Shown in pieces: positions 3,732 through 27,271 of a stretch of 64,000 nt of DNA. Each line of letters opens with the position of its first letter. Position 1 is the first letter of the stretch. The stretch comes from an uncultured Bacteroidia bacterium (GTDB taxonomy: Bacteria; Bacteroidota; Bacteroidia; NS11-12g; UBA9320). Position numbers and translations under genes: made by a program. A model generated the notes under the pieces. It was given only the letters and a program-made list of their open reading frames with translations. It ran no database searches and had not been told where the DNA came from. The stretch is from assembly GCA_943787465.1 (NCBI GenBank), contig CALSMN010000001.1, positions 124,001 through 188,000 on the forward strand, given 5' to 3'.

Positions 3732-6164
3732 TTAGTTTATTATCAACTTTTCAGAAAAGAGGTTGTTACAAAATACGAAGTAAACTCCTTTGGGAAGTTC
3801 ATTTAGGTTGATTTCTTCAGTAATATTAGGAAGAATATCTGTTCTTTTTACTTTTTGTCCAACACTATTGACAATCTGAACGGATAAAGTACCTTTAGAA
3901 CTATTACTTATGTGTATTTCTCCATTAGCAGGATTTGGGCTAATAGTAAGCAATTTTGGACCTTTTTTATTGGGTATGCCGTTTACTACACCCAATGTTT
4001 CTTCGACATCAGTACAGGCAGTGTTAGTTACAATTGGTTCTTCGTATAGACCGTCAGTATAGGAAAAGTATATTAATGCTGTATTGCATATTTGTTGTCC
4101 AATTTGCAATGAATTTGGTAATAGATTCAGAGTATAATCAACGAAGGCTTTTGATTCATTTTCTTGTTCACTGCTATTTTTTAGTAATATATTTTCCCAT
4201 CGAGTAACAAGTTTGGCTGTGTAGTCTCCATTAATATTTCTGGTATACTCATAAGTTGTTCTTGGTTTAGCTTCCGGGTGACTAGTTACAGTCTCCACAC
4301 CAAATTTACTGATTATGATAGAAGGATCTAATTCGTCTACCAATGTAATACCGACAACTTCAAAGTTAGAATTATTCTTTATACCTATTTTATAAGCCAA
4401 CTTATCAATAGTTGGATTTACCTTACTTCCATCCAAACAGTATTTATAATTATCTGATGTTTCACCTTCTGTAAATGACAATATTGCTTGGTTATTAGAC
4501 ATATTTTGGTCAGTTACATTCTCAGATAAAACTAATTCTGAGCGAATAATTAAATTTTCAGAGCCCTTAACTTTACATACAATATCAAAATGTAAACGGT
4601 CATTAGCGCTCACATTTACAGTGTATGTAATAATATTATTTGTATAGGATTGATAGGGTATTTCACTTGATATTAAGTTCAAATTAGGTCCTAAATCAAT
4701 AGTCACTACCGCGTCTGAAATAGGCTGACTTCCCTCATTTGTTATAGCAATATTAATAGTTTTTTGATCACCCACTAAAGCATTAATTCCCTGATTATCA
4801 GATAAATAAATAGACCCATCTGATATGCCAACAGCTTGATTTACACCTAAGGCAGTACCATAATAAGTTTTGAATTCAGATGTGTTTATTATGACATCAG
4901 GACATGTTGGATTGAAATGCTGATATTTTTGGGCATTAATATGATGTGTTTGATTATCAACATGTAAATACAATTGACCCGTATAATCCGTTTGAAATAT
5001 GTTTTTAAAATTGTCTAATTTCACTGGATAATTAGTCATCCAAGGCTCGTCAGAGTCTTTAATACAATCGGAATTTTTATCATTAAATACACGAATATTA
5101 AGTTGGGCCCTGTCTGTATAAACCTCGCCTATATAATTTAATTTACCGTTGTCTGTAAAATCTCCAGACAAAATGATACTTTCTTTCCAAGCATATAGCT
5201 GTTGCACACTGCTTAAATTGAGTTTGGTAGGTTGCCATTTTATACCATCATATAAGAGAAGGTTATATTTTTGATGGTTAAGAGTATCAGTAAACTGGCC
5301 AAGTGCAAATAAGGTATTTTTGAGATTTGCAAATTGACGAACTTCATAGATTTCCATATGAAGTAAACCATCTGAAATATCCTGCCAAACCCCATTTTTA
5401 CTAATTTTAAATTTTGATTCATCAAATTTTGATTCTCCATACATGACAACTTCGTCTTTGAATTGACCAATAGTTATGTTTTGTCCTAAAAATGGCGGAT
5501 AATTGGCTGCCTCCCAAATGTTACCGTTCCATGTTACCAATGATAAATTATCGGAACTAGGGTTTGTGAACTTTCCAGTTGCGTAAAGTTTTTGATTGTA
5601 GTACACTGCACTTAAAAAGGTATTATCATACGTTTTCAGAGCAATGGCGTTACCTTCTGGACTCCATCCATTATCAATGTACTGAATAATATTGTAAGTC
5701 TGTTTGTTAGCGATGTATTTACCCAAACATTTTAACACACCATTTTCTATAAAAAACTGTTTAATAGATAGACTTTTATTCACCAAGTCATTTGAAATAT
5801 CTGTCCAACCTTGTTCCCATTTCAGGATGTAACTTTTATCACTTGTTGTTTCTCTATTTTCATAGCCTACAGCAAGATAAATTACGTCATTAAATGAAAT
5901 TATATCTAAAATTTTAAATTCGCCATCGGAGGTTATACCAGTCTTCTGAAGATTAGGTGAAGTAATTTTGTTCCAAAAATGACCATTCCAAGTTTGAACA
6001 TTTATTTGACCATTTCTATCATCAAATGCAACGACTAGACCATTGTTGTGTTTGTATATTTTATCTGGAGCATACGGCAATCCTATTCCCATAGGACTGA
6101 GCACTTGTCCAAGCAAAGATTGACTAGCTAGAATAAAGAAGATATTTAAAATATATTTCTTCAT
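3732..6164 (-). CDS. T9SS type A sorting domain protein with propeller-like and DUF11/DUF7619-like domains
   Basis: This is an 810-aa secreted protein. It has a signal peptide (about residues 1-20, ending LLGQ) and roughly 350 residues of repeated WNG-x-W-like strands (VTWNGNIWEA, LLYDGIKWQP) that look like a beta-propeller. An SdrD-B-like segment (VFNDKNSDCIKDSDEPW) follows, then DUF11/DUF7619-like beta-sandwiches (ITNEGSQPISDAVVTIDLG). The C-terminal 75 residues contain SPNPANGEIHISN and end PKGVYFVFCNNLFSEKLIIN, a T9SS type A sorting signal, so the protein should cross the outer membrane and be attached or released. It overlaps the upstream anti-sigma-like gene by 4 bp, which implies co-transcription with the ECF sigma gene. 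Its ligand or function is unknown. Confidence 0.85.
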   Translation of the reverse strand: MKKYILNIFFILASQSLLGQVLSPMGIGLPYAPDKIYKHNNGLVVAFDDRNGQINVQTWNGHFWNKITSPNLQKTGITSDGEFKILDIISFNDVIYLAVGYENRETTSDKSYILKWEQGWTDISNDLVNKSLSIKQFFIENGVLKCLGKYIANKQTYNIIQYIDNGWSPEGNAIALKTYDNTFLSAVYYNQKLYATGKFTNPSSDNLSLVTWNGNIWEAANYPPFLGQNITIGQFKDEVVMYGESKFDESKFKISKNGVWQDISDGLLHMEIYEVRQFANLKNTLFALGQFTDTLNHQKYNLLLYDGIKWQPTKLNLSSVQQLYAWKESIILSGDFTDNGKLNYIGEVYTDRAQLNIRVFNDKNSDCIKDSDEPWMTNYPVKLDNFKNIFQTDYTGQLYLHVDNQTHHINAQKYQHFNPTCPDVIINTSEFKTYYGTALGVNQAVGISDGSIYLSDNQGINALVGDQKTINIAITNEGSQPISDAVVTIDLGPNLNLISSEIPYQSYTNNIITYTVNVSANDRLHFDIVCKVKGSENLIIRSELVLSENVTDQNMSNNQAILSFTEGETSDNYKYCLDGSKVNPTIDKLAYKIGIKNNSNFEVVGITLVDELDPSIIISKFGVETVTSHPEAKPRTTYEYTRNINGDYTAKLVTRWENILLKNSSEQENESKAFVDYTLNLLPNSLQIGQQICNTALIYFSYTDGLYEEPIVTNTACTDVEETLGVVNGIPNKKGPKLLTISPNPANGEIHISNSSKGTLSVQIVNSVGQKVKRTDILPNITEEINLNELPKGVYFVFCNNLFSEKLIIN

Positions 6165-7429
6165 TTTTTATTCAGTTTTACGTTGGTTATAATATTTATC
6201 CCATAGGAATAAGGTCTTGACAAAATGGCATTTGTTTTTTTGTCGTTCAAAGCATTTAAATTGACGGCATAATTGGGTTCTAAACCAATTACTAAACGCG
6301 GTTTATTATAGTATAATCCAGTTTTTATACTTGTTGCTATATTTTGATTATTAAACGTCAAATTCGTTAAATCATCTAATTTTAGGTTTAAAAAGTTACC
6401 TTTTTTACCCTCTCTTTTTGTAAGTGACATCAGGGATAACCCGAATTGCGTCCTTATTTCAAAGTTAGTAGAAATTGATTGCCTATATCCAATATTTAAT
6501 GGAATTTCAATAAAATGATACAAATTTGACCCAGTAAAGGTGATGTTTTCGTATGCCAATGGGTTAAGAGGAGCATAATCAGTAATTTTACCATTTGTCA
6601 CAATTGGGAATTCCGTAATGGTATAATTATAGTTGATTTGTTCAGATCGTTGGGTTGAGTACACACCGCTACTAAAAAACAATTTGGAATTGAAATGATA
6701 AACTAAATCTAAACCTAAACTGGTTGTATATGCGGCATCTTCTTTACTTTCAATAAATTGTTTAAAATTACGATTTATCAACCCAGATAGCGCTTTATTT
6801 TCTTTTAAGTATTTGTGGGTTATGGCAGGAGTGAAAGCTATACCATATTCCCAATTTTTATGATTTTTTGAGTGTGTCTGTTTGCTTACTTTTAGATTAT
6901 TTTGATAAAATATTAATTCTGGTTTTATTTTAATTTTCTTGTGCGCATATAGTTGACACATTTTAACTCTTTGCAGAGACGTGAATGTACTTTTTTGGTC
7001 ATCCAATATATTTAGTTTAACTGGTTTATATTCCGGCTTTTTATTTATTTTTTTTCCAGTTTCTATTTTAGATTCAACATCATCTTTTTTACCCGTTGAT
7101 ATATCTTCTTTTTCTCTGTTTATATCTATTAATTTTTCACTGGTCTCTATTTGTTCTTTTAGAGGATCATTACCATGTATACTTGTTACCTTTTGTGAGC
7201 TATTAGAATTTTGTAACGTATCTGAATAATCTTTTTGTCTAGTTATAGTGTAGCTTACGGCAGTAAAAATAGATAAAGCAAGAAAAAACCACATTCCGAT
7301 AATGCGGTTTTTTCTATACTTTAATCTTTGTTCAATGGCATTCCAATCAGAAGCATCAGCCATGGCATTGGCGGGCACATCGGCTGCTGCCTTTTTTAGA
7401 ATACTATCGATTTGCTTTAAATTATCCAA
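6161..7429 (-). CDS. Membrane-anchored protein with anti-sigma-like N-terminus and outer-membrane-barrel-like C-terminus
   Basis: Residues 1-42 are short, helical and cytoplasmic-looking (MDNLKQIDSILKKAA, SDWNAIEQRLKYRK). Residues about 43-62 form one transmembrane helix, and about 65-150 are a charged Lys/Glu-rich linker. From about residue 185 onward there are alternating beta-strands typical of Bacteroidota porin-family barrels (FFSSGVYSTQ, IEIPLNIGYRQ, PRLVIGLEPNYAV). The gene lies 11 bp downstream of an ECF sigma gene, so the N-terminus is a good candidate anti-sigma segment. That assignment rests on position and architecture, not on a recognised zinc-binding anti-sigma motif. It overlaps the downstream T9SS cargo gene by 4 bp. 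It could also be a plain 'outer membrane beta-barrel protein' with an unusual anchor. Confidence 0.68.
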   Translation of the reverse strand: MDNLKQIDSILKKAAADVPANAMADASDWNAIEQRLKYRKNRIIGMWFFLALSIFTAVSYTITRQKDYSDTLQNSNSSQKVTSIHGNDPLKEQIETSEKLIDINREKEDISTGKKDDVESKIETGKKINKKPEYKPVKLNILDDQKSTFTSLQRVKMCQLYAHKKIKIKPELIFYQNNLKVSKQTHSKNHKNWEYGIAFTPAITHKYLKENKALSGLINRNFKQFIESKEDAAYTTSLGLDLVYHFNSKLFFSSGVYSTQRSEQINYNYTITEFPIVTNGKITDYAPLNPLAYENITFTGSNLYHFIEIPLNIGYRQSISTNFEIRTQFGLSLMSLTKREGKKGNFLNLKLDDLTNLTFNNQNIATSIKTGLYYNKPRLVIGLEPNYAVNLNALNDKKTNAILSRPYSYGINIITNVKLNKK

Positions 7430-7440
7430 TCTAAATTAAT

Positions 7441-7974
7441 TTACTTTTTACGCTTAAGCTTCGCGTTCAACAATGAACGCCCCCTAGAAAGTCTACTTTT
7501 AGATGATCCCTCACTGATACCTAATTGCTTAGCTATATCTTTATGAGACAATCCATCAATGGCATATAAATTTAGTACGACCTTATAAATATCAGGTAGT
7601 TCATTTAATGCATTAATTACTATTTTGGCGTCTATTTCTTCATTGGGTACTTCTTCACTCATTTCTGCTTTTTCAAAATTCGTGTCGAATTCATAATGAT
7701 TGTATTTGTTTCTACCTAAGCGTTGTTTATTTAAAGCGATATTTATAAAAATTCGTGTCATCCACGTATCTATTTTACTATTTCCTTTAAATGATTTTAT
7801 ACTCGTAAAAACTTTATAGTATCCATCTTGTAGAAGATCTTTTGCATCTTCTTGATTTTTACAATATCTTATACAAACAGCCATCATCTTATTGGCATAC
7901 TTTTCAAAGAGCATTTTTTGTGCAGATCGATCGTGTTCCTTACATCGTCGTATAAGTTCTTCTTCACTTATCAA
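7441..7974 (-). CDS. ECF-type RNA polymerase sigma factor
   Basis: A 177-aa sigma-70 family protein with only regions 2 and 4. Region 2 includes FEKYANKMMAVCIRYCKN, then DLLQDGYYKVF and IDTWMTRIFINIALN. Region 4 is a helix-turn-helix with LPDIYKVVLNLY, LSHKDIAKQLGISEGSSKSR and LSRGRSLL. Such factors redirect RNA polymerase in response to envelope or other signals. It is the first gene of a probable three-gene operon with the anti-sigma-like barrel protein and the T9SS cargo protein. The region between it and the terminator at 8039 carries no other gene. Confidence 0.93.
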   Translation of the reverse strand: MISEEELIRRCKEHDRSAQKMLFEKYANKMMAVCIRYCKNQEDAKDLLQDGYYKVFTSIKSFKGNSKIDTWMTRIFINIALNKQRLGRNKYNHYEFDTNFEKAEMSEEVPNEEIDAKIVINALNELPDIYKVVLNLYAIDGLSHKDIAKQLGISEGSSKSRLSRGRSLLNAKLKRKK

Positions 7975-8029
7975 TTTGCGTATGTATTAATATTAGACAC
8001 GACTAAACTATAATGGTTGCAAACTAAAG

Positions 8030-8068
8030 CAAAAAAAAAGCTCTCCGTATTGGAGAGCTTTTTTTTTG
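8030..8068 (-). terminator. Rho-independent terminator of the 8081 gene
   Basis: An 8-bp GC-rich stem (AGCTCTCC / GGAGAGCT, 8039-8059) is flanked by a run of A on one side and T on the other. On the minus strand it lies just after the stop of the 1384-aa gene and before the ECF sigma gene, which it insulates. The symmetric tracts would also work in the other direction. Confidence 0.88.
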
Positions 8069-8080
8069 GATGACTAATCC

Positions 8081-11000
8081 TTAGTTATTTAGGATAATTT
8101 TCTTGGTAATGATAGTACCATTAAGGCTCATTTTCAAGTAGTACATTCCATTTGCATTTCCTTCAAGGTTTACTGCGAATGATCCGTTTTGTACTTTTCC
8201 GTTTACCACGGTAGCTACCTGCTGTCCCATTGTATTGAAGATGCCTATGTTCACTTCTTCATTTTCTGGAAGATTAACCTGTACATTAACCGGTCCGTTG
8301 GTTGGGTTTGGAGATACTTGAATCATATCTGCCAAGGCTAAGTCACTAATTCCATTCACCAATACCTGGTGATCGTAGTCTACATCAAAGTATAGTGTAA
8401 ATTCTCTAGACTCATTTCCTGAGTTATCAGCTGTTTTGAAGATTACAGAATATAATCCCGCTTCTTGTAAATTCAAATCATTGAATACCAAGCTGTGGTT
8501 CATTCGTAAATCTGCTGGTGCATCATAGTTGTCTGAGAAGTTCACAAAGTTGATAGCATTCACTTTAGAACCTACGCCTATTTTAACGATACCTCCTGCT
8601 TTACCCGTAATTACCGGTGCAACATCATCAATCACATGTACTGTTCTCACTTTTACCGATACGTTACCTGCAGCATCTGTTGCTGTGTAGGTATCTTCAT
8701 AGGTGCCTAATGTATACGCATCTACGTTTGATGTACTCGTTAAACTGATTTGTGTGTTGTTGTATAAGTTATCCGATGCACTCGCATTTACTGGAGTGTA
8801 CGGGGTGTTTACACGGTGATTGATTACATCTAGTGTACGTAAATCAATGACAGGCGGTACATAATCTCTCACTACATAATCAATACACTGTGTAGAAACA
8901 TTTCCACTCTCATCGGTTGCTGTATACGTCACAGATGTAGTTCCTTGGAATCGCGTATCTACAGATGCTCCTCCGTTGCTTGCTGCAGGATTTGCTTTAA
9001 ACTCTAATCCGTTTCCAATGCTATTGTAGTTATCCGTTGCTAAAGTTACATCGGCAAAGATGTTTTGAAGTTGTACTTCTACCGTCCAGCAAGTCGTTGA
9101 TTTATCTGCATTTGGATTATCAATGACAGGTACCTGTGTATCTACAACACGTACTATTCGAGTAGCAGTGGATGCATTACCTTGGTTATCACGTACACTA
9201 TATGTAATGGTGTAATCGCCCAATACTTCTACATTTACTTCTCCAGATACCACAATGGCACTAGAAATATTTCCTTCTTTGTTGTCTATCGCTGTTGCGG
9301 GTAGATCAATCCATGCTGTTCCTACCTCAATGGTCGTATCTGCTGAACCAGTAACTGTAATCACAGGTGCTGTTTGATCCGATACTACATAAACTACTCT
9401 AGTTACAGGATCTGCTGCATTTCCAGATGCATCCATGGCATTGTAGATTTCGTAGTAGATACCTGGTAAGGTCTGATCCACATCTGAAGTTTGTTTCACA
9501 TTTGCTGTGATATCTCCTTGTGATGGGTCTGTTGCTGTAGCTCCAGCAGATGCATAGTTGATGTCTGCTACGGTGGCTACTTGCTCAATGTATACGGTAT
9601 CTGCATCAATCAAGGTAATGTATGGCATATCTCCATCGTTCATTACACGGATTGCATAATCTTCAAACTCGCCAATTCGGTTAGCATTGGCATTGCTTGA
9701 TGCACCACATGGCTCATTATCGTCAGCATTGTAAGATACACCTACACGCATACGTGTGGTGGCTTCAAATGCGTCATCGATGGTTGGTACGGTAAAGCTA
9801 CCCGTCCAGCTTAACGTATTGGCCGCTGATTCAGTACCTACTAACTCTCCAGCGTCATCAAAGTCACCATCTACGTTCCAGTCGATCCATACTTTTCGGT
9901 TCATCTTGTTAACCGCTGTGTTTCTAGCGATTTCAAAATGGTATGTTCCTCCAAAGTTGAGTGATGTCGTAGCATCTGCGGTATAATCGGTATATTCTAC
10001 ACCAGACTCACTGCTATTCTCATATTTAGAACCCGTAATTGGATTACTGATGCTTACATAGTTGATGCCGATATCCTCTGAAGTAGTTACCCCAATAACA
10101 GGCTCACAGTGTGATACTACAATGATATAGGCTGTTTTTACTACGGTAGCTTCTGAAGCTGCTTCATCTACGCTGTTGTATCCTCTACACTGTACGGTAT
10201 ATGTACCGGGTGTGTTGAAGGTAAATGAACGCACATTAGATGTTGTTGCAGATGGAGCATTAGGCGTTACATCTGTTCCATTATTAGGGAAGAACGTCCA
10301 CTCCCAGTTGTTGGCCTTATCGCTAGAAGCGGTAAAGGTTACCTCACCGCCTAATGAAGGACGTCGAGTACTTGCCACAAAGTCTAAATTAGTAGGGGTA
10401 TTGGGAGCCACAACCGTGAAGGTATAGCTCTTCGTGCTGGTTCTACCATCACATGCTATTACTTTAAGTTCTAAGGTATAGGTTCCGTTAGTTAAGAACG
10501 TATACGAGAAATCACGTGTATTAGCAGATGTATTGTCTGGACCGGTTAGTGTCCACTCAAAAGCGGTGCTTCCTTCTGCATTTAATGAGGTATTGGTAAA
10601 CTCAACATATACTGCATTGTATAAGGTAGTAGATGGGAAACTATAATCAGCAAGAGGTGCATCTGCAGAACCGGCTACGCTCGTCCAATTGGCTGCAAAT
10701 CCTCCAGCAGTTGTTCCCGTTGTAGATGTCCACAAAAGATACATCGCTCCTGAATTGGCCGTAATCGCTCCTGTAGGTGCATTACCTGAAGTGAAGCCAT
10801 TACCCGTATGTAAAGGAGTACCTAATGCATTTACACCATCATATATTTTAAGGGTGGCATTGGAATTTAAATCAAAGGATGTAAAATCTAGCGTAACGCT
10901 CTTTGCACCACAAGGAGCAATAAGCGCTTCAGTCGTTTTATTATTACCATAGTTACCATTCTGTCCACCATCATCATAAATGGTTCCAGCAGATACACTG

Positions 11001-12235
11001 ATTACGTTGGCAGGTAAAGCAGTACCAGCTCCCATGTTATAACTGGATCGTTGAACGGTTACATATCCCATTTTAGGCGTTTGTACTTGACCAGGTATAC
11101 TATTGGATGCCGTTAAATATACATCCCATACTCCGATGTCTACAGCACCGAAATAATTACCCGTATTTACCAATGGGTTTTTGTTTAAGAATGGATCGCC
11201 TCCGCGAAGAACGCCTTGGTCATCTCCATCGATGGTATCATTGGTTAATGGGTTCACAAACACCCAATCCCAATACGTAGCACCGTTAGTGCTTAAATCG
11301 GTCAATTTAACCGTTTCAAAGATTTCGTATACGCTCTTATCAGCAACAAAGTCCGACTTAGGAGGAGCAGTTGGGCTGATAATGGTAATTTGTTTAGTAG
11401 TAGAATCGCTACCATTACAATTGGTACTCACCAATTTTACATCATACGTACCCGTAGCAGCAAATACATGGTTCACATTGGTTGAGGTGTACGTTGTACC
11501 ATCCATAGACCAATTGTGAGAAATATACCCTGCTTGATTTGAATTTTTGAAAGTAACCGGAGTACCCACATACGCGGTATCTGGTCTTAGGAAATCACTT
11601 GTAGTTGATGTAGGAACGATATAGTCACAGGTATAATCTTCGGTTTCACCATAGTATAATTGATTGCTGTGGTTTGTACTAGTCATGCCATAACCATATT
11701 GGTAATCTGTTCTTACACGCATGCGAACAGTGTTGGTAGAGCCACTACAAGGAACTGTAAATTGGCGACTTGTTAACGAATTATATCCAATACTCCAACG
11801 ATTTGGCACAACAAATTCGCCAGCATCAGCAAAATCTTTGTCACCATTGAAATCTATCCATACACCACAAAAAATATTGTATCCATTATATCCTCCTGGA
11901 TTGGATTGTCTTATTTTGATAGTGTAGGTAGAACCAGCACTTAAGTCAAAAGCGCTTTTTGATTCCACCAAGGTGTAATGTCCATTACGAACCGGATTGT
12001 TACATCCATCAGAATTTTTGCTGTAAATGACATTTCCATTAGCATCTTCAATTACTATTTCTTCAATAGCGCCATACCTAAGAGCTGTTGCACTGTACGC
12101 GCAACCAAAAATGTGGTTGGGTTGAGAATAGCTTTGAGCAGATGCTCCAAAAGTGAGTAGCAGCAAAGATAGAGATGTTAAAACTTTGCTAATCAATCGT
12201 TTAAAGATTGAAAATTGAGTATTTGTTTTTACCAT
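8081..12235 (-). CDS. Giant T9SS-secreted adhesin-like protein (GEVED, PKD, CUB, DUF5011-like domains)
   Basis: A 1384-aa multidomain surface protein. A signal peptide ends near residue 33 (LLLTFGASAQ). A first GEVED domain (WIDFNGDKDFADAGEF ... GETEDYTC) covers about residues 130-205, followed by PKD-like domains. A CUB-like segment (about 410-520; LKIYDGVNALGTPL) is followed by two more PKD-like domains. A second GEVED domain (WIDWNVDGDFDDAGEL ... GEFEDYAI) lies near 790-880, then several bacterial Ig/DUF5011/HYR-type repeats (YTITYSVRDNQGN, VTYTATDESGN, YEDTYTATDAAGN). The C-terminal T9SS type A sorting domain starts VSPNPTNGPVN and ends ITKKIILNN. Such proteins usually serve adhesion or polymer binding. 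The gene is visibly less AT-rich than its neighbours, as is common for long adhesins. It is monocistronic. Confidence 0.88.
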   Translation of the reverse strand: MVKTNTQFSIFKRLISKVLTSLSLLLLTFGASAQSYSQPNHIFGCAYSATALRYGAIEEIVIEDANGNVIYSKNSDGCNNPVRNGHYTLVESKSAFDLSAGSTYTIKIRQSNPGGYNGYNIFCGVWIDFNGDKDFADAGEFVVPNRWSIGYNSLTSRQFTVPCSGSTNTVRMRVRTDYQYGYGMTSTNHSNQLYYGETEDYTCDYIVPTSTTSDFLRPDTAYVGTPVTFKNSNQAGYISHNWSMDGTTYTSTNVNHVFAATGTYDVKLVSTNCNGSDSTTKQITIISPTAPPKSDFVADKSVYEIFETVKLTDLSTNGATYWDWVFVNPLTNDTIDGDDQGVLRGGDPFLNKNPLVNTGNYFGAVDIGVWDVYLTASNSIPGQVQTPKMGYVTVQRSSYNMGAGTALPANVISVSAGTIYDDGGQNGNYGNNKTTEALIAPCGAKSVTLDFTSFDLNSNATLKIYDGVNALGTPLHTGNGFTSGNAPTGAITANSGAMYLLWTSTTGTTAGGFAANWTSVAGSADAPLADYSFPSTTLYNAVYVEFTNTSLNAEGSTAFEWTLTGPDNTSANTRDFSYTFLTNGTYTLELKVIACDGRTSTKSYTFTVVAPNTPTNLDFVASTRRPSLGGEVTFTASSDKANNWEWTFFPNNGTDVTPNAPSATTSNVRSFTFNTPGTYTVQCRGYNSVDEAASEATVVKTAYIIVVSHCEPVIGVTTSEDIGINYVSISNPITGSKYENSSESGVEYTDYTADATTSLNFGGTYHFEIARNTAVNKMNRKVWIDWNVDGDFDDAGELVGTESAANTLSWTGSFTVPTIDDAFEATTRMRVGVSYNADDNEPCGASSNANANRIGEFEDYAIRVMNDGDMPYITLIDADTVYIEQVATVADINYASAGATATDPSQGDITANVKQTSDVDQTLPGIYYEIYNAMDASGNAADPVTRVVYVVSDQTAPVITVTGSADTTIEVGTAWIDLPATAIDNKEGNISSAIVVSGEVNVEVLGDYTITYSVRDNQGNASTATRIVRVVDTQVPVIDNPNADKSTTCWTVEVQLQNIFADVTLATDNYNSIGNGLEFKANPAASNGGASVDTRFQGTTSVTYTATDESGNVSTQCIDYVVRDYVPPVIDLRTLDVINHRVNTPYTPVNASASDNLYNNTQISLTSTSNVDAYTLGTYEDTYTATDAAGNVSVKVRTVHVIDDVAPVITGKAGGIVKIGVGSKVNAINFVNFSDNYDAPADLRMNHSLVFNDLNLQEAGLYSVIFKTADNSGNESREFTLYFDVDYDHQVLVNGISDLALADMIQVSPNPTNGPVNVQVNLPENEEVNIGIFNTMGQQVATVVNGKVQNGSFAVNLEGNANGMYYLKMSLNGTIITKKIILNN

Positions 12236-12283: not shown

Positions 12284-12415
12284 TAAAATTAGACACGGAT
12301 TTGTTAAATAGTTGCAAAAAAAAATGAAATTATTTCTGCGGTTAAAAAATAGTCATTGGATAATTTTTGGCTTCACTGTATTTTATTAAAATCTATTTAC
12401 ATTCGAAACCTTACT

Positions 12416-22907: not shown

Positions 22908-23600
22908 TCAAGCTATCTTGAAGATTGCTTTTTTTATTTGTTCATAGGAAAGATAACAGATTTCATACATTAAAAAATAGTATAAAAAATCTTCTATTGG
23001 AATCGTCAAAAAACGAATACCTAAATTTTCCGCATTGTTATACCATACGATTGGATTATCAGTAAAGTACCCTGTTAGAACTCCGTTTACTAGTGTAAAT
23101 GGCATTAAAATAATGACATAGCTTGTGTAAAATATTCCTTTATTGGGTGCTTTCAAAAAAACAGCCAAACTGGTTGTTAATATTACTAAAATAGAAACGG
23201 TGCAAGTATATAATTTCGGATAACCTATAATTAAAAAAAGAGTAGCAATTCCGATCATCATGTAATCTAATATATACTCAATCTTTTGCAGATAATTTGG
23301 TGCTTTGAGAACTACCAATTGGTCATATAGAAACATAAAAGCATAGGGTACACATATAAAAAATAACCATTCTTCTATGGGTAAATGGAATATGTCAATT
23401 CCGATCAGAAAGTCAGAATTAAACCCCCATATTTTTTGATAGGCAAACCAAATATCCCATGATAAAACACAAAAAAAAAGAATGATAATGGATATGAAAA
23501 GTGGTTTCCATCGTTTATAAAAGTGACCTGTTTTATTGAAGCTTAGTAAAAAAGGGATGCTTAAAGTTCCAAGATTAATCCACAGATATAGTAAATTCAT
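22908..23600 (-). CDS. Fused CrtYcd-type lycopene beta-cyclase
   Basis: A 230-aa integral membrane protein with about six to seven hydrophobic helices. It holds two copies of the lycopene cyclase domain found in heterodimeric CrtYc/CrtYd: the first with FHLPIEEWLFFICVPYAFMF (residues about 69-88), the second with IPIEDFLYYFLMYE (about 200-213). The conserved PIEE/PIED acidic residues are present in both. It would cyclise lycopene ends to give beta-carotene. It overlaps the end of crtZ by one base and is the last gene of the carotenoid operon. Confidence 0.9.
   Translation of the reverse strand: MNLLYLWINLGTLSIPFLLSFNKTGHFYKRWKPLFISIIILFFCVLSWDIWFAYQKIWGFNSDFLIGIDIFHLPIEEWLFFICVPYAFMFLYDQLVVLKAPNYLQKIEYILDYMMIGIATLFLIIGYPKLYTCTVSILVILTTSLAVFLKAPNKGIFYTSYVIILMPFTLVNGVLTGYFTDNPIVWYNNAENLGIRFLTIPIEDFLYYFLMYEICYLSYEQIKKAIFKIA
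22910..22937 (+). terminator. Probable terminator of rpoD
   Basis: An imperfect hairpin (AAGCTATCTTGAAGATTGCTT, one mismatch) is followed by a run of T on the plus strand. It overlaps the last codons of the convergent lycopene cyclase gene. It is weaker than the other terminators in the window. Confidence 0.5.
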
Positions 23601-24055
23601 TACTTGGCATTTTTAAAATACTTAAAAGGAACAACCAACATACCAAAGCATTCTCCAAACTCCTTATTTAAATGTTTATGATGGACTTTGTGAGCTTTCC
23701 GAATAGCCTTCAAATACTTGTGATTAGTTCGCTTAAAAAGATTAAAACGCTGGTGTATAAATATGTCGTGTACCAAGAAGTAAGCGACGCCATATAATGC
23801 AATACCAATGCCTATAAAAAAAAGAAAAAAGTATGCAGTCACACTACTACCAACGATAAAACAAATAGCACTAGGGATTGCGAAAATTAGAAAGAAAGCG
23901 TCATTTTTTTCAAAAAAGCCGGGATTAACTTGATGATGATCCTCATGTAATTTCCATAAAAATCCGTGCATAATATATTTGTGCGTAAACCAGGCTACAA
24001 ACTCCATGAACACAAAAGTGATTATTGTGATTATAGTATATTTAAGATAAATCAT
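23600..24055 (-). CDS. crtZ: Beta-carotene hydroxylase CrtZ (fatty acid hydroxylase superfamily)
   Basis: A 151-aa membrane di-iron hydroxylase. Histidine clusters are visible in order: HKYIMHG, HEDHHQ, HDIFIHQRF and HKVHHKH, which match the CrtZ pattern. It adds 3-hydroxyls to beta-ionone rings, so with the cyclase it should make zeaxanthin by way of cryptoxanthin. Four hydrophobic segments are present. It overlaps crtB by 4 bp upstream and the cyclase gene by one base downstream. Confidence 0.93.
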   Translation of the reverse strand: MIYLKYTIITIITFVFMEFVAWFTHKYIMHGFLWKLHEDHHQVNPGFFEKNDAFFLIFAIPSAICFIVGSSVTAYFFLFFIGIGIALYGVAYFLVHDIFIHQRFNLFKRTNHKYLKAIRKAHKVHHKHLNKEFGECFGMLVVPFKYFKNAK

Positions 24056-24894
24056 AAAAAGTAGGAACCTAATGAAAGTCTAACCTTTGATGTAAATAGT
24101 AATCTAAATTTAGTGGTATTGGGAACTCTTAATCGTTTATTAAGCAATTCATCAAAACTAGCATTTTCCAATTTTTTAAAAAGTTTAAAATAGTATCGAT
24201 AAGCAGTATAAACACCATATTTTGAGTTAGATGGAAGTTGATTGATAGCATCTAAAGCCTGAACAAAATCTTGATTAATATCATCTTCAATTTTTCGTTT
24301 TAGTTCAGGTGTCCATTCTTGATCATTCATACCAGGAAAATAAATTCGGCCCAAGGTTTCCTTGTCTGCTTTTAAATCACGTAAAAAATTTACTTTTTGA
24401 AAAGCAGCACCCAGACTCATTGCTCCAGATTTTAAGCTTTCGTATTTTGATGTATCTCTATTGCAAAAAATCTTCAAACACATTAATCCAACGACTTGTG
24501 CGCTACCAAGTATGTATTTATCAAAGGTTTCCTGATTATATTTTTGATCCTCTAAATCCATAACCATACTGTCAAAAAAGGAATGAATCAACCAGTGATC
24601 AATTTGATAATAATTAACAGCATGTTGAAAACTGTTAAGAATGGGATTTAGGCTAATTTTTTCATCAATTGCTCTAAAAGTTTGAGCTCTAAAATCGTTT
24701 AACAACTCTTTTTTGTTAAATTCATGAAATGTATCCACTATTTCATCGGCAAGTCTTACCAATCCATATACGGCATATACAGGTTGTCGAATTTCTTTAT
24801 GAAGCATTTTAATTCCTAATGAAAAGGATGTGCTATATTCATTAGTAACAATCTTGCTTGTTTTTAGCGATATTTTATCATATAAATCTTTCAT
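24052..24894 (-). CDS. crtB: Phytoene synthase
   Basis: CrtB joins two geranylgeranyl diphosphates head to head to form phytoene. The 280-aa protein has the first Asp-rich motif in VRLADEIVDTFH and the second in FLRDLKADKETLGRIYFP, both Mg-diphosphate ligands, and the preceding GAAFQKVNFLRD helix. The family also includes squalene synthases, but the position between crtI and crtZ settles the role. It overlaps crtI and crtZ by 4 bp each. Confidence 0.95.
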   Translation of the reverse strand: MKDLYDKISLKTSKIVTNEYSTSFSLGIKMLHKEIRQPVYAVYGLVRLADEIVDTFHEFNKKELLNDFRAQTFRAIDEKISLNPILNSFQHAVNYYQIDHWLIHSFFDSMVMDLEDQKYNQETFDKYILGSAQVVGLMCLKIFCNRDTSKYESLKSGAMSLGAAFQKVNFLRDLKADKETLGRIYFPGMNDQEWTPELKRKIEDDINQDFVQALDAINQLPSNSKYGVYTAYRYYFKLFKKLENASFDELLNKRLRVPNTTKFRLLFTSKVRLSLGSYFL

Positions 24895-26372
24895 GACAGT
24901 TTGTGTTCTTGGTTTATAAGGTTAGCCACTATTTTTCCAGAGATTATGGATGGTGGTACACCTGGACCGGGCACGGTCAGTTGACCAATATAATATAAAT
25001 TTTTCAATTTTTTGTTTTTGCACCTCGGTTTTAGAATAGCTGTTTGCCTCAAAGTGTTAGCTAATCCATAGGCGTTCCCTTTAAAAGAGTGATATTCAGT
25101 AATAAAATCTGAATGAGCAAAACTTTCAAAAACCTCAATATGAGGTCTAATATCTACTCCGATATGTTTTTCAAGTCTGTTGCAGATCATAGTAAAATAT
25201 TGTTCTTTGATAGATTCGGTATCACTTAATTCAGTTGAAACTGGAACCAAGAAGAATAAATTCTCTTTTCCTTTTGGGGCAACACTAGAATCAGTAATAC
25301 TTGGACTGCATATATAGAACAATGGTTTCTTGGGCCATTGGTGCGTATCGTAAATCTCTACAGCATGCTCATTGAAATCCTCATCAAAAAATAAGTTATG
25401 ATGTTTGATGCCTTTTAATCGTGTATTCAATCCAACATAATAAAGTAGGCTACTGGGGGCCATAGTTCTACTTTCCCAATAAGAATTTGAATAAATTCGA
25501 TATGGTTTAGGTAGTAGTTTTTGTTCAGTATGATGATAATCTGCACCGCTAACAATAACATCAGCACTGTGTTTTTTTCCATTGACCACAACACCCACAC
25601 AACTGTTATTTTCTATCAGAATTTCTTCTACGGCTGCATTTGTATTGAATTTTACATTGAGTCCTTTAGCAATAGATACCATTGCTTGAACAATATTATT
25701 CATACCACCCATTGGGTACCATGTACCCATGACCATATCAGCATAATTCATCAAACTATATAATGCTGGAGTATTTCGAGGTTTAGCTCCTAAAAATAGT
25801 ACCGGAAATTCCAAAAGTTCAATCAGTCTAGGATGGGTAAAATAGCGTCTGATATGTTTGCTTATAGATTTAAATAAATCAAGTGACATTGCTTTTTTAG
25901 CAATACCTAAACTAATGAATTCTATGTAAGAAAGAGAAGGTTTGGTAACAAAATCATTCATTCCCACCTCGTATTTTATTTTTGCTTGATGTAGGAATTC
26001 TTGTAATTTTTTTCCAGAACCCTTTTCGTACTTTTCAAAATACGTATATAATTCCTCAATCTGAGCGGGGATATCATCAGGCTTATCTTTCCAGAATACT
26101 CTGTAACTTGGATCAAGACGTATTAAATCATAGTGTTTTTCCACACAGGTATTAAAATCGGCATAAAATCTTTCAAAAACATCGGGCATCCAATACCAAC
26201 TTGGACCCATGTCAAAAACAAATCCGTTTATTTCTTTTGATCTGGCTCTTCCTCCCAAGGAATTATTTTTTTCGAATACTTCGACAGTGTATCCCATCTT
26301 TGCTAGATAGCAAGCATTGGATAGAGAAGAAAAACCTGAACCTATGATGGCAATATTTACCTGATTTGGCAT
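24891..26372 (-). CDS. crtI: Phytoene desaturase
   Basis: A 493-aa FAD-dependent desaturase that turns phytoene into lycopene. The N-terminal dinucleotide-binding motif is IAIIGSGFSSLSNACYLAK, followed by VEVFEKNNSLGGRARS and the substrate-region FDMGPSWYWMPDVFE. The C-terminal flavin motif is YIGQLTVPGPGVPPSIISGK. It lies 23 bp downstream of the MerR regulator and overlaps crtB by 4 bp. The number of desaturation steps cannot be deduced from sequence alone, but the cyclase downstream implies lycopene. Confidence 0.95.
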   Translation of the reverse strand: MPNQVNIAIIGSGFSSLSNACYLAKMGYTVEVFEKNNSLGGRARSKEINGFVFDMGPSWYWMPDVFERFYADFNTCVEKHYDLIRLDPSYRVFWKDKPDDIPAQIEELYTYFEKYEKGSGKKLQEFLHQAKIKYEVGMNDFVTKPSLSYIEFISLGIAKKAMSLDLFKSISKHIRRYFTHPRLIELLEFPVLFLGAKPRNTPALYSLMNYADMVMGTWYPMGGMNNIVQAMVSIAKGLNVKFNTNAAVEEILIENNSCVGVVVNGKKHSADVIVSGADYHHTEQKLLPKPYRIYSNSYWESRTMAPSSLLYYVGLNTRLKGIKHHNLFFDEDFNEHAVEIYDTHQWPKKPLFYICSPSITDSSVAPKGKENLFFLVPVSTELSDTESIKEQYFTMICNRLEKHIGVDIRPHIEVFESFAHSDFITEYHSFKGNAYGLANTLRQTAILKPRCKNKKLKNLYYIGQLTVPGPGVPPSIISGKIVANLINQEHKLS

Positions 26373-26395: not shown

Positions 26396-27271
26396 TTAAT
26401 GATGATTTCTTAAATCATGTATGGTTGAGATGAATTGAATGTTTGAATCTTTATAATTTGTTTGATAAATGTCAGGGAGGCCATGAACAAGAATTTTTTT
26501 GCCGTGAAATTTTTTAATAAGTGTATTTAAATAAGTTTCTATTCTGTTTTTAGAACGATATATAGTGAATGCACAAACAATGGTATTTGCATCAGTATTT
26601 GAACAGCATTCTTCAACATCCTCAAGTGGAACATTTGCCCCCAAGTAGATACATTCTTTGTTTTCTTTTCTGAGTATGTAATAGGAATAAAGTAGTCCAA
26701 TTTCGTGAAATTCAGTTTCTGGTAAATATAAAACGTATCGGTCTTTGGAGTGAACAAATGGAAGATTATTGATTGCAGAAAATAGTTTTTGTCTTACTAA
26801 CTGACTAGTAAAATGTTCGTGAGAAGGATTAAGTTTATCAATAGTCCACATCAATCCTATTTTAATTAGTAGTGGACTTATAATTGTTTCTATGGTTTCT
26901 TCAGTACCAAATTCATGGATGCTTTTTTGGTAAACAGATTCAAATAATTGGTTATCACATTTGAGCGTAGCAATTATTAAATCACTGATAATATTGGATT
27001 TAGCAGCATCTATGTTTTGTTTTTGTAAATCTTCAATCATTGTATTCAAATCTTTTGAAGACAATGCACTTGCTTTACTTATTTTCATGCCATGATCTAA
27101 TACAGAAACCAAATTCAGTAGCTTTTTTAAATCATCATGATCATAGTATCGAATGTTGGTTGGTGTTCGTTTGGGTTCAAATATGGCATACCGTTTTTCC
27201 CAAGTCCTAATCGTATGTGCTTTTATGCCACTAATATTTTCTAAATCCTTTATACTCAGTGCATTATTCAT
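26396..27271 (-). CDS. CarH/LitR-like MerR regulator with B12-binding domain
   Basis: A 291-aa predicted light-responsive repressor. Residues 5-70 are a MerR helix-turn-helix (IKDLENISGIKAHTIRTWEK, with a YYDHDDLKKL wing). Residues about 90-170 are the helical cap, with the CarH-type Wx9EH motif (W142, E152-H153). Residues about 178-291 are a Rossmann B12-binding domain with ExHxxG (E187-F-H189-E-I-G192), His189 being the predicted lower cobalt ligand. In known CarH proteins adenosylcobalamin drives tetramer formation on DNA, and light breaks it up. It heads the carotenoid operon. The residue after W142 is Thr, where Thermus CarH has the His that binds cobalt after photolysis. Confidence 0.88.
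   Translation of the reverse strand: MNNALSIKDLENISGIKAHTIRTWEKRYAIFEPKRTPTNIRYYDHDDLKKLLNLVSVLDHGMKISKASALSSKDLNTMIEDLQKQNIDAAKSNIISDLIIATLKCDNQLFESVYQKSIHEFGTEETIETIISPLLIKIGLMWTIDKLNPSHEHFTSQLVRQKLFSAINNLPFVHSKDRYVLYLPETEFHEIGLLYSYYILRKENKECIYLGANVPLEDVEECCSNTDANTIVCAFTIYRSKNRIETYLNTLIKKFHGKKILVHGLPDIYQTNYKDSNIQFISTIHDLRNHH

Follow-up and report, generated by a model that had tools for sequence, protein, structure and literature searches.

Three adjacent genes at this locus raise the question of whether a single polypeptide can join an anti-sigma function at the inner membrane to a barrel in the outer membrane, and how the T9SS-sorted surface protein encoded beside it is involved. They lie on the minus strand of the window (the whole 64,000 bp stretch analyzed here), in the 5′ to 3′ order ECF sigma factor, 422-aa membrane/barrel protein and 810-aa T9SS cargo; all features described below are on that strand. 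The Das-like sigma gene (bp 7441–7974, TTG start) encodes 177 amino acids with Pfam matches to Sigma70_r2 (1.4e-11) and Sigma70_r4_2 (2.6e-16), and in profile libraries without ECF-group models its matches are to the generic sigma-70 ECF models only. A gap of 11 bp (7430–7440) separates it from the gene for the Dma-like dual-membrane anti-sigma protein (6161–7429, 422 aa, TTG start), which overlaps the T9SS cargo gene (3732–6164, 810 aa, ATG start) by 4 bp (6161–6164). The original prediction had all of these details right. The TTG starts at 7974 and 7429 are weak, and the one on the sigma gene is retained in almost all relatives in the family (L036–L061), where the cargo start is mostly ATG; the ratio of the products may be set by such weak starts. 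We put the probability at roughly 60% that T9SS surface proteins are served here by a dedicated sigma/anti-sigma switch of the Dma type; the propeller protein encoded by the third gene is its candidate partner.

The AlphaFold model of the 422-aa protein, built with 27 homologs, has a helix at residues 3–16 and a long helix at 26–72 that holds the hydrophobic stretch 44–63 (the predicted inner-membrane helix, bp 7241–7300). A disordered tether follows (residues 66–187, bp 6869–7234; pLDDT <50 over 68–187), which is the least conserved part of the protein at 13% mean identity, and then eight long strands within 192–420 at pLDDT 92–98, modeled as an OmpA/OprF-like barrel (residues 190–420, bp 6170–6862) with four outward loops. 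The predicted cytoplasmic anti-sigma helices (residues 1–43, bp 7301–7429) are modeled at moderate pLDDT (55–80); in alignment A1 their W29 and L36 are nearly invariant and their end is basic. Because this basic run directly precedes the membrane stretch, the positive-inside rule puts the N-terminus on the cytoplasmic side and the tether on the periplasmic side, and therefore barrel loops L1 to L4 should face outward. In VIA-align comparisons the barrel matches that of OprF with Z 18.4 (rmsd 2.1 over 131 residues) and OmpA with Z 17.1. At the level of profiles the window's own 422-aa protein has no significant Pfam match, 13 of the 27 homologs match OMP_b-brl_2 (best 2.4e-9), and a PDB sequence search with the family gave nothing credible. 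The models thus support one chain that combines a predicted segment in the inner membrane with a C-terminal barrel of outer-membrane type; the barrel-like C-terminus that had been proposed is borne out by structure prediction of this protein alone, and its joining to an inner-membrane segment by AlphaFold and VIA-align together. The N-terminal helices would bind the sigma factor. The suggestion that this architecture was undescribed is not supported, since it matches the published Dma class of B. thetaiotaomicron, whose members have an N-terminal anti-sigma domain, a membrane helix, a long disordered tether and a C-terminal barrel (PMC13088901). The 422-aa protein shares the C-terminal barrel, disordered tether, single predicted TM helix and adjacent ECF sigma gene, and is called Dma-like here from its predicted anatomy and its context.

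The 810-aa protein carries a signal peptide and matches Por_Secre_tail (PF18962, E = 1.6e-11), TIGR04183 (35.2 bits, cut-off 23), DUF11 and DUF7619. The TIGR04183/PF18962 domain together with a T9SS in its own genome, where SprA (TIGR04189) scores 2434 bits and about 60 T9SS-tail proteins are encoded, places it among the type A T9SS cargoes. AlphaFold models it at a mean pLDDT of 87.6 as a seven-bladed beta-propeller (about residues 21–361, bp 5082–6104; seen in the strand pattern of the model at pLDDT about 90, with Kelch and integrin-alpha matches), an Ig-like stalk of SdrD-like, DUF11 and DUF7619 domains (bp 3954–5081, from domain matches and the model) and a terminal type A sorting domain (bp 3735–3953). 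Its closest solved structures are integrin alpha chains, which likewise combine a propeller with Ig-like domains, a resemblance that does not imply similar function.

The window's family comprises 35 genomes here, the window's own among them, and 31 of these have a match to the 422-aa protein; in one of the 31 the match is to an unrelated locus that lacks a sigma gene. At all 26 further loci with all three positions on the contig the order of the triad is the same (24 intact and two with a split frame), and the cargo is 802–816 aa long where it is intact; nearly all of these loci adjoin comF and thiL. The triad is thus not a chance arrangement. In genome G009, which is nearly closed, the anti-sigma gene is present as two ORFs (142 + 309 aa), the break falling in the tether region (L045, 8206–9550), and in another genome, at L051 (5855–8262), the cargo gene is split into 409 + 393 aa; either errors of sequencing or genuine breaks could account for this. 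A second, diverged copy of the triad occurs in some genomes (L064, L069, L071, L235 and L238), and other Dma-like pairs in the family have different third genes (L233, L236 and L237). One of the latter is in the window's own genome, where a second sigma gene has a Dma-like neighbor (L233, 1628–3626, on G000 C1) and has neither the promoter described below nor a T9SS gene directly downstream. Another sigma/anti-sigma-like pair, on C4 of the same genome (L234, 3088–10000), has behind it the gene for a surface-type protein of 1720 aa or more and is possibly a further variant on the same theme. Dma-like proteins without a neighboring sigma gene occur at L193 and L205 in two related genomes. No sigma gene accompanies five Dma-like matches (L065, L067, L070, L072 and L073) that adjoin a 980-aa peptidase or a thiolase gene, and these five were excluded from the trees.

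Across the class, the Dma profile was matched in 108 of 295 genomes. Of 60 loci from other genera of the class, 57 have a sigma gene immediately upstream of the Dma-like gene, but only 14 of the 58 with a visible neighbor have a T9SS-tail protein immediately downstream; the pairing of sigma and anti-sigma genes is thus general, whereas the T9SS cargo belongs to a subset of loci and is no regular component of Dma signaling. When 76 loci were labeled by their third gene and placed on a tree made from the sigma factors alone, the propeller-type label required three changes against a mean of 23.5 for shuffled labels (none of 500 shuffles was as low), and 27 of the 29 propeller-type loci fell in a single group with members in five families (SH-aLRT 93), while the remaining two are long branches. 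From this coherence on a sigma-only tree it follows that the triad has been inherited as a unit over a long time, and the expected conservation of gene order in relatives is confirmed by both the 26 further loci and the single sigma clade. The host is a marine Bacteroidota in which the three-gene switch is old and well conserved, and the propeller cargo looks to be a dedicated, apparently new, partner gene in this subset.

An ECF-type promoter, TGCAACCATT-N-GTGTCTA, lies just upstream of the sigma gene (bp 7994–8021), which would make the operon autoregulated; it was recognized by its match to the consensus. It is near-invariant in this position, and nearly all relatives have TTGCAACC(A/T)TT and then GTGTCTAA or a close variant. 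The same motif, here TGCAACTATT-N-GTGTCTA (bp 12290–12316), is found before the gene that precedes the operon (bp 8081–12235), which encodes a 1384-aa T9SS surface protein with GEVED, PKD and Ig-like domains; its domains and the common promoter make it the predicted main output. Between this gene and the sigma operon a terminator-like hairpin and T run is seen in the sequence (8031–8060), and an equivalent is visible in most relatives.

Pattern searches for the regulon gave a narrow result. GCAAC-N13..17-GTGTCWA matches three times in the window's genome, at the two promoters and once in coding sequence; the match at G000 C4:393185 lies inside an ORF and was rejected. A stricter motif gave 19 matches and no control matches in 34 genomes. 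The motif precedes the sigma gene in 31 of 36 propeller-type loci, where 0.1 would be expected, and in four of 38 loci with unrelated third genes. The looser TGCAAC-N-GTC, which in the genome of the window matches 40 times against 41 times for the control, showed no enrichment and was rejected as a regulon motif; those of its further matches that were inspected fall within coding sequence or point toward no gene. In family f2 the sigma promoters instead have GCGTCAT as their −10 element, and this pattern has one further site in each of genomes G035 and G036, before an unlinked GEVED homolog (that of G036 is 1366 aa long, 34% identical, and in tandem). Such a joint change of promoters in trans is the best evidence for control of the surface-protein gene by the sigma factor. 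Elsewhere in the relatives, seven of ten further assessable non-coding sites precede T9SS-tail proteins or GEVED homologs, of which each genome encodes only about 58–150. The GEVED gene itself is duplicated or triplicated in tandem at L039, L045, L046, L053 and L270, with near-identical C-termini among the copies. The sigma factor thus appears to have a sharp predicted regulon, GCAAC-N-GTGTCTAA, that looks to be new. Surface proteins had been proposed as the regulated product, and the common and specific promoter agrees with this; the wider idea of a circuit that senses T9SS output as a whole fares less well, since two promoters set against about 60 T9SS-tail proteins suggest a local circuit of the sigma factor's own operon and one adjacent T9SS protein.

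Whether the cargo is what the barrel senses was approached through conservation and covariation. The outer loops of barrels are usually their most variable part; in the alignment of this barrel the conservation of loops L1, L3 and L4 is close to that of the strands, and their lengths hardly change. Saturation could mimic covariation, so the plain distance correlations were redone with rank and cubic terms, controlling for two flanking genes. Over 21 related genomes, and with segments of unequal length, barrel distances gave a rank partial correlation of 0.58–0.60 with the propeller, compared with 0.33 with the sigma factor, 0.33 with the protein's own N-terminus and 0.15 with the sorting domain; distances of the N-terminus gave 0.37 with the sigma factor and 0.21–0.24 with the propeller. 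This barrel–propeller covariation is modest, and when only the genus is considered the barrel correlates no less with ThiL than with the cargo. The gene for the cargo keeps its place immediately after the anti-sigma gene, and overlaps it in the window. Together these indirect and weak signs suggest the propeller cargo as a ligand of the barrel. As the barrel's dedicated outer partner, whether ligand or co-receptor reporting the state of the surface, the 810-aa propeller is the leading candidate, with a chance that falls a little short of even.

In the mechanism that we propose, the N-terminal helices of the 422-aa protein would keep the ECF sigma factor bound at the inner membrane, while the protein's disordered tether would cross the periplasm and end in the eight-stranded outer-membrane barrel, which is predicted with high confidence. 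Perturbation of the barrel or tether would free the sigma factor, as inferred from Dma1 and Dma2, and the freed factor would transcribe its own operon and the 1384-aa GEVED neighbor from the GCAAC-N-GTGTCTAA promoters, for which the comparative evidence is strong. The 810-aa protein, once exported by the T9SS, may report the state of the surface at the barrel. The fullest form of this proposal, in which the T9SS-exported propeller is a dedicated extracellular Dma-type ligand that sets a cytoplasmic sigma factor through one two-membrane chain and that sigma factor then governs the T9SS surface coat, is put forward tentatively.

The locus might instead be a plain Dma switch, its barrel sensing a glycan, envelope stress or lipid state and its propeller cargo being merely another co-transcribed output, and this must be taken seriously though we would bet slightly against it. 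The third genes at other Dma loci vary (lipoproteins, other T9SS proteins and unrelated genes), and the third gene of the Dma2 operon is dispensable for the OMV effect, the authors of that 2026 paper proposing a glycan as what the barrel senses (PMC13088901). T9SS-tail proteins also lie behind the additional promoter sites of relatives, so that serving as an output is the common fate. However, other outputs move, whereas the propeller cargo tracks one sigma clade over five families and is always behind the anti-sigma gene, and the covariation with the propeller and the conserved outer loops also speak for a partner rather than a mere product.

Two further alternatives bear on what is sensed and on the chain itself. 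By analogy with PorA-PorXY-SigP, unexported or unprocessed cargo at the barrel might free the sigma factor, making the system a feedback monitor of T9SS traffic. PorA of P. gingivalis, a T9SS-tail protein confined to Porphyromonas, stands upstream of an ECF sigma factor and has a proposed feedback role (PMC7712824), and T9SS genes of Flavobacterium psychrophilum are transcribed from an ECF-type promoter that contains a CGT box (PMC9723704). The predicted regulon here, however, contains no T9SS machinery, its two promoters lie before cargo or the operon itself, and the looser motif is not enriched (40 against 41); a genome-wide monitor appears weakened as the main reading by a regulon of two predicted promoters, and we consider it unlikely. 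The 422-aa protein might also fail to span two membranes, if its hydrophobic helix were a late signal peptide or were clipped and the barrel were separate from a short inner-membrane anti-sigma peptide. Its two regions of very unequal conservation with a poorly conserved linker between them, and the G009 gene with its break in the tether region, could be read this way, but nearly all relatives have a single unbroken frame, the conserved N-terminal region has a basic inner flank, and the layout equals that of the published Dma class, all of which make this quite improbable.

If this switch operates as proposed, a co-encoded and co-inherited propeller protein on the outside of the cell becomes a candidate for what Dma barrels sense, and would be the first identified signal for any of them. 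It would give Bacteroidota a compact way to fit their surface proteins to actual T9SS delivery. The two-promoter regulon could serve as a reporter, and the sigma/promoter pairs that shift together between families offer ready tests of ECF specificity. Elsewhere in the window, bp 22,908–26,372 hold what by eye is a carotenoid-pathway-like run of ORFs (membrane cyclase-like, hydroxylase-like, synthase-like and desaturase-like), adjoined by a MerR-like regulator at 26,396–27,271.

Several known systems resemble parts of this locus. FecA/FecR/FecI likewise combines an outer-membrane barrel, an inner-membrane anti-sigma factor and an ECF sigma factor, but as three separate proteins with a TonB-dependent transporter, whereas here there is one chain with an eight-strand barrel; FecIR-type surface signaling was rejected on account of this barrel and of a profile search that gave no FecR, STN or TonB-receptor match in any of the three genes. 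In PorA-PorXY-SigP of Porphyromonas gingivalis a T9SS-tail surface protein signals to an autoregulated ECF sigma factor, as in the model here, but through a two-component system with an unknown envelope link, and T9SS machinery is what it controls. The 810-aa protein has the signal peptide, Ig-like stalk and Por_Secre_tail of type A T9SS cargo, and differs from other such cargo in being locked into a sigma/anti-sigma operon. The closest parallel is the Dma family (Dma1/Das1, from a PNAS 2024 paper as cited in PMC13088901, and Dma2/Das2), in which one membrane helix, a tether, a barrel and an adjacent ECF sigma gene are found as they are here, along with an anti-sigma N-terminus, which for the protein here is a predicted one; the sigma genes are of the ECF21 group and the class is found only in Bacteroidota (PMC13088901). 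The core idea of a dual-membrane anti-sigma architecture is thus already known from this class. Dma2 too is part of a three-gene operon, and its deletion mainly alters that operon, itself a main target as is predicted here, and PULs (PMC13088901). No paper treating Dma together with T9SS was found in the literature searched, and the text with both terms merely cites the Dma work. Known Dma regulons are NigD or PULs and the B. thetaiotaomicron proteins are known for vesiculation, unlike the role proposed here, where the third gene codes for a propeller cargo of the T9SS and surface proteins of that system make up the predicted regulon; the subfamily appears to be a variant in which a Dma switch is tied to T9SS surface proteins and has a propeller protein as its candidate partner.
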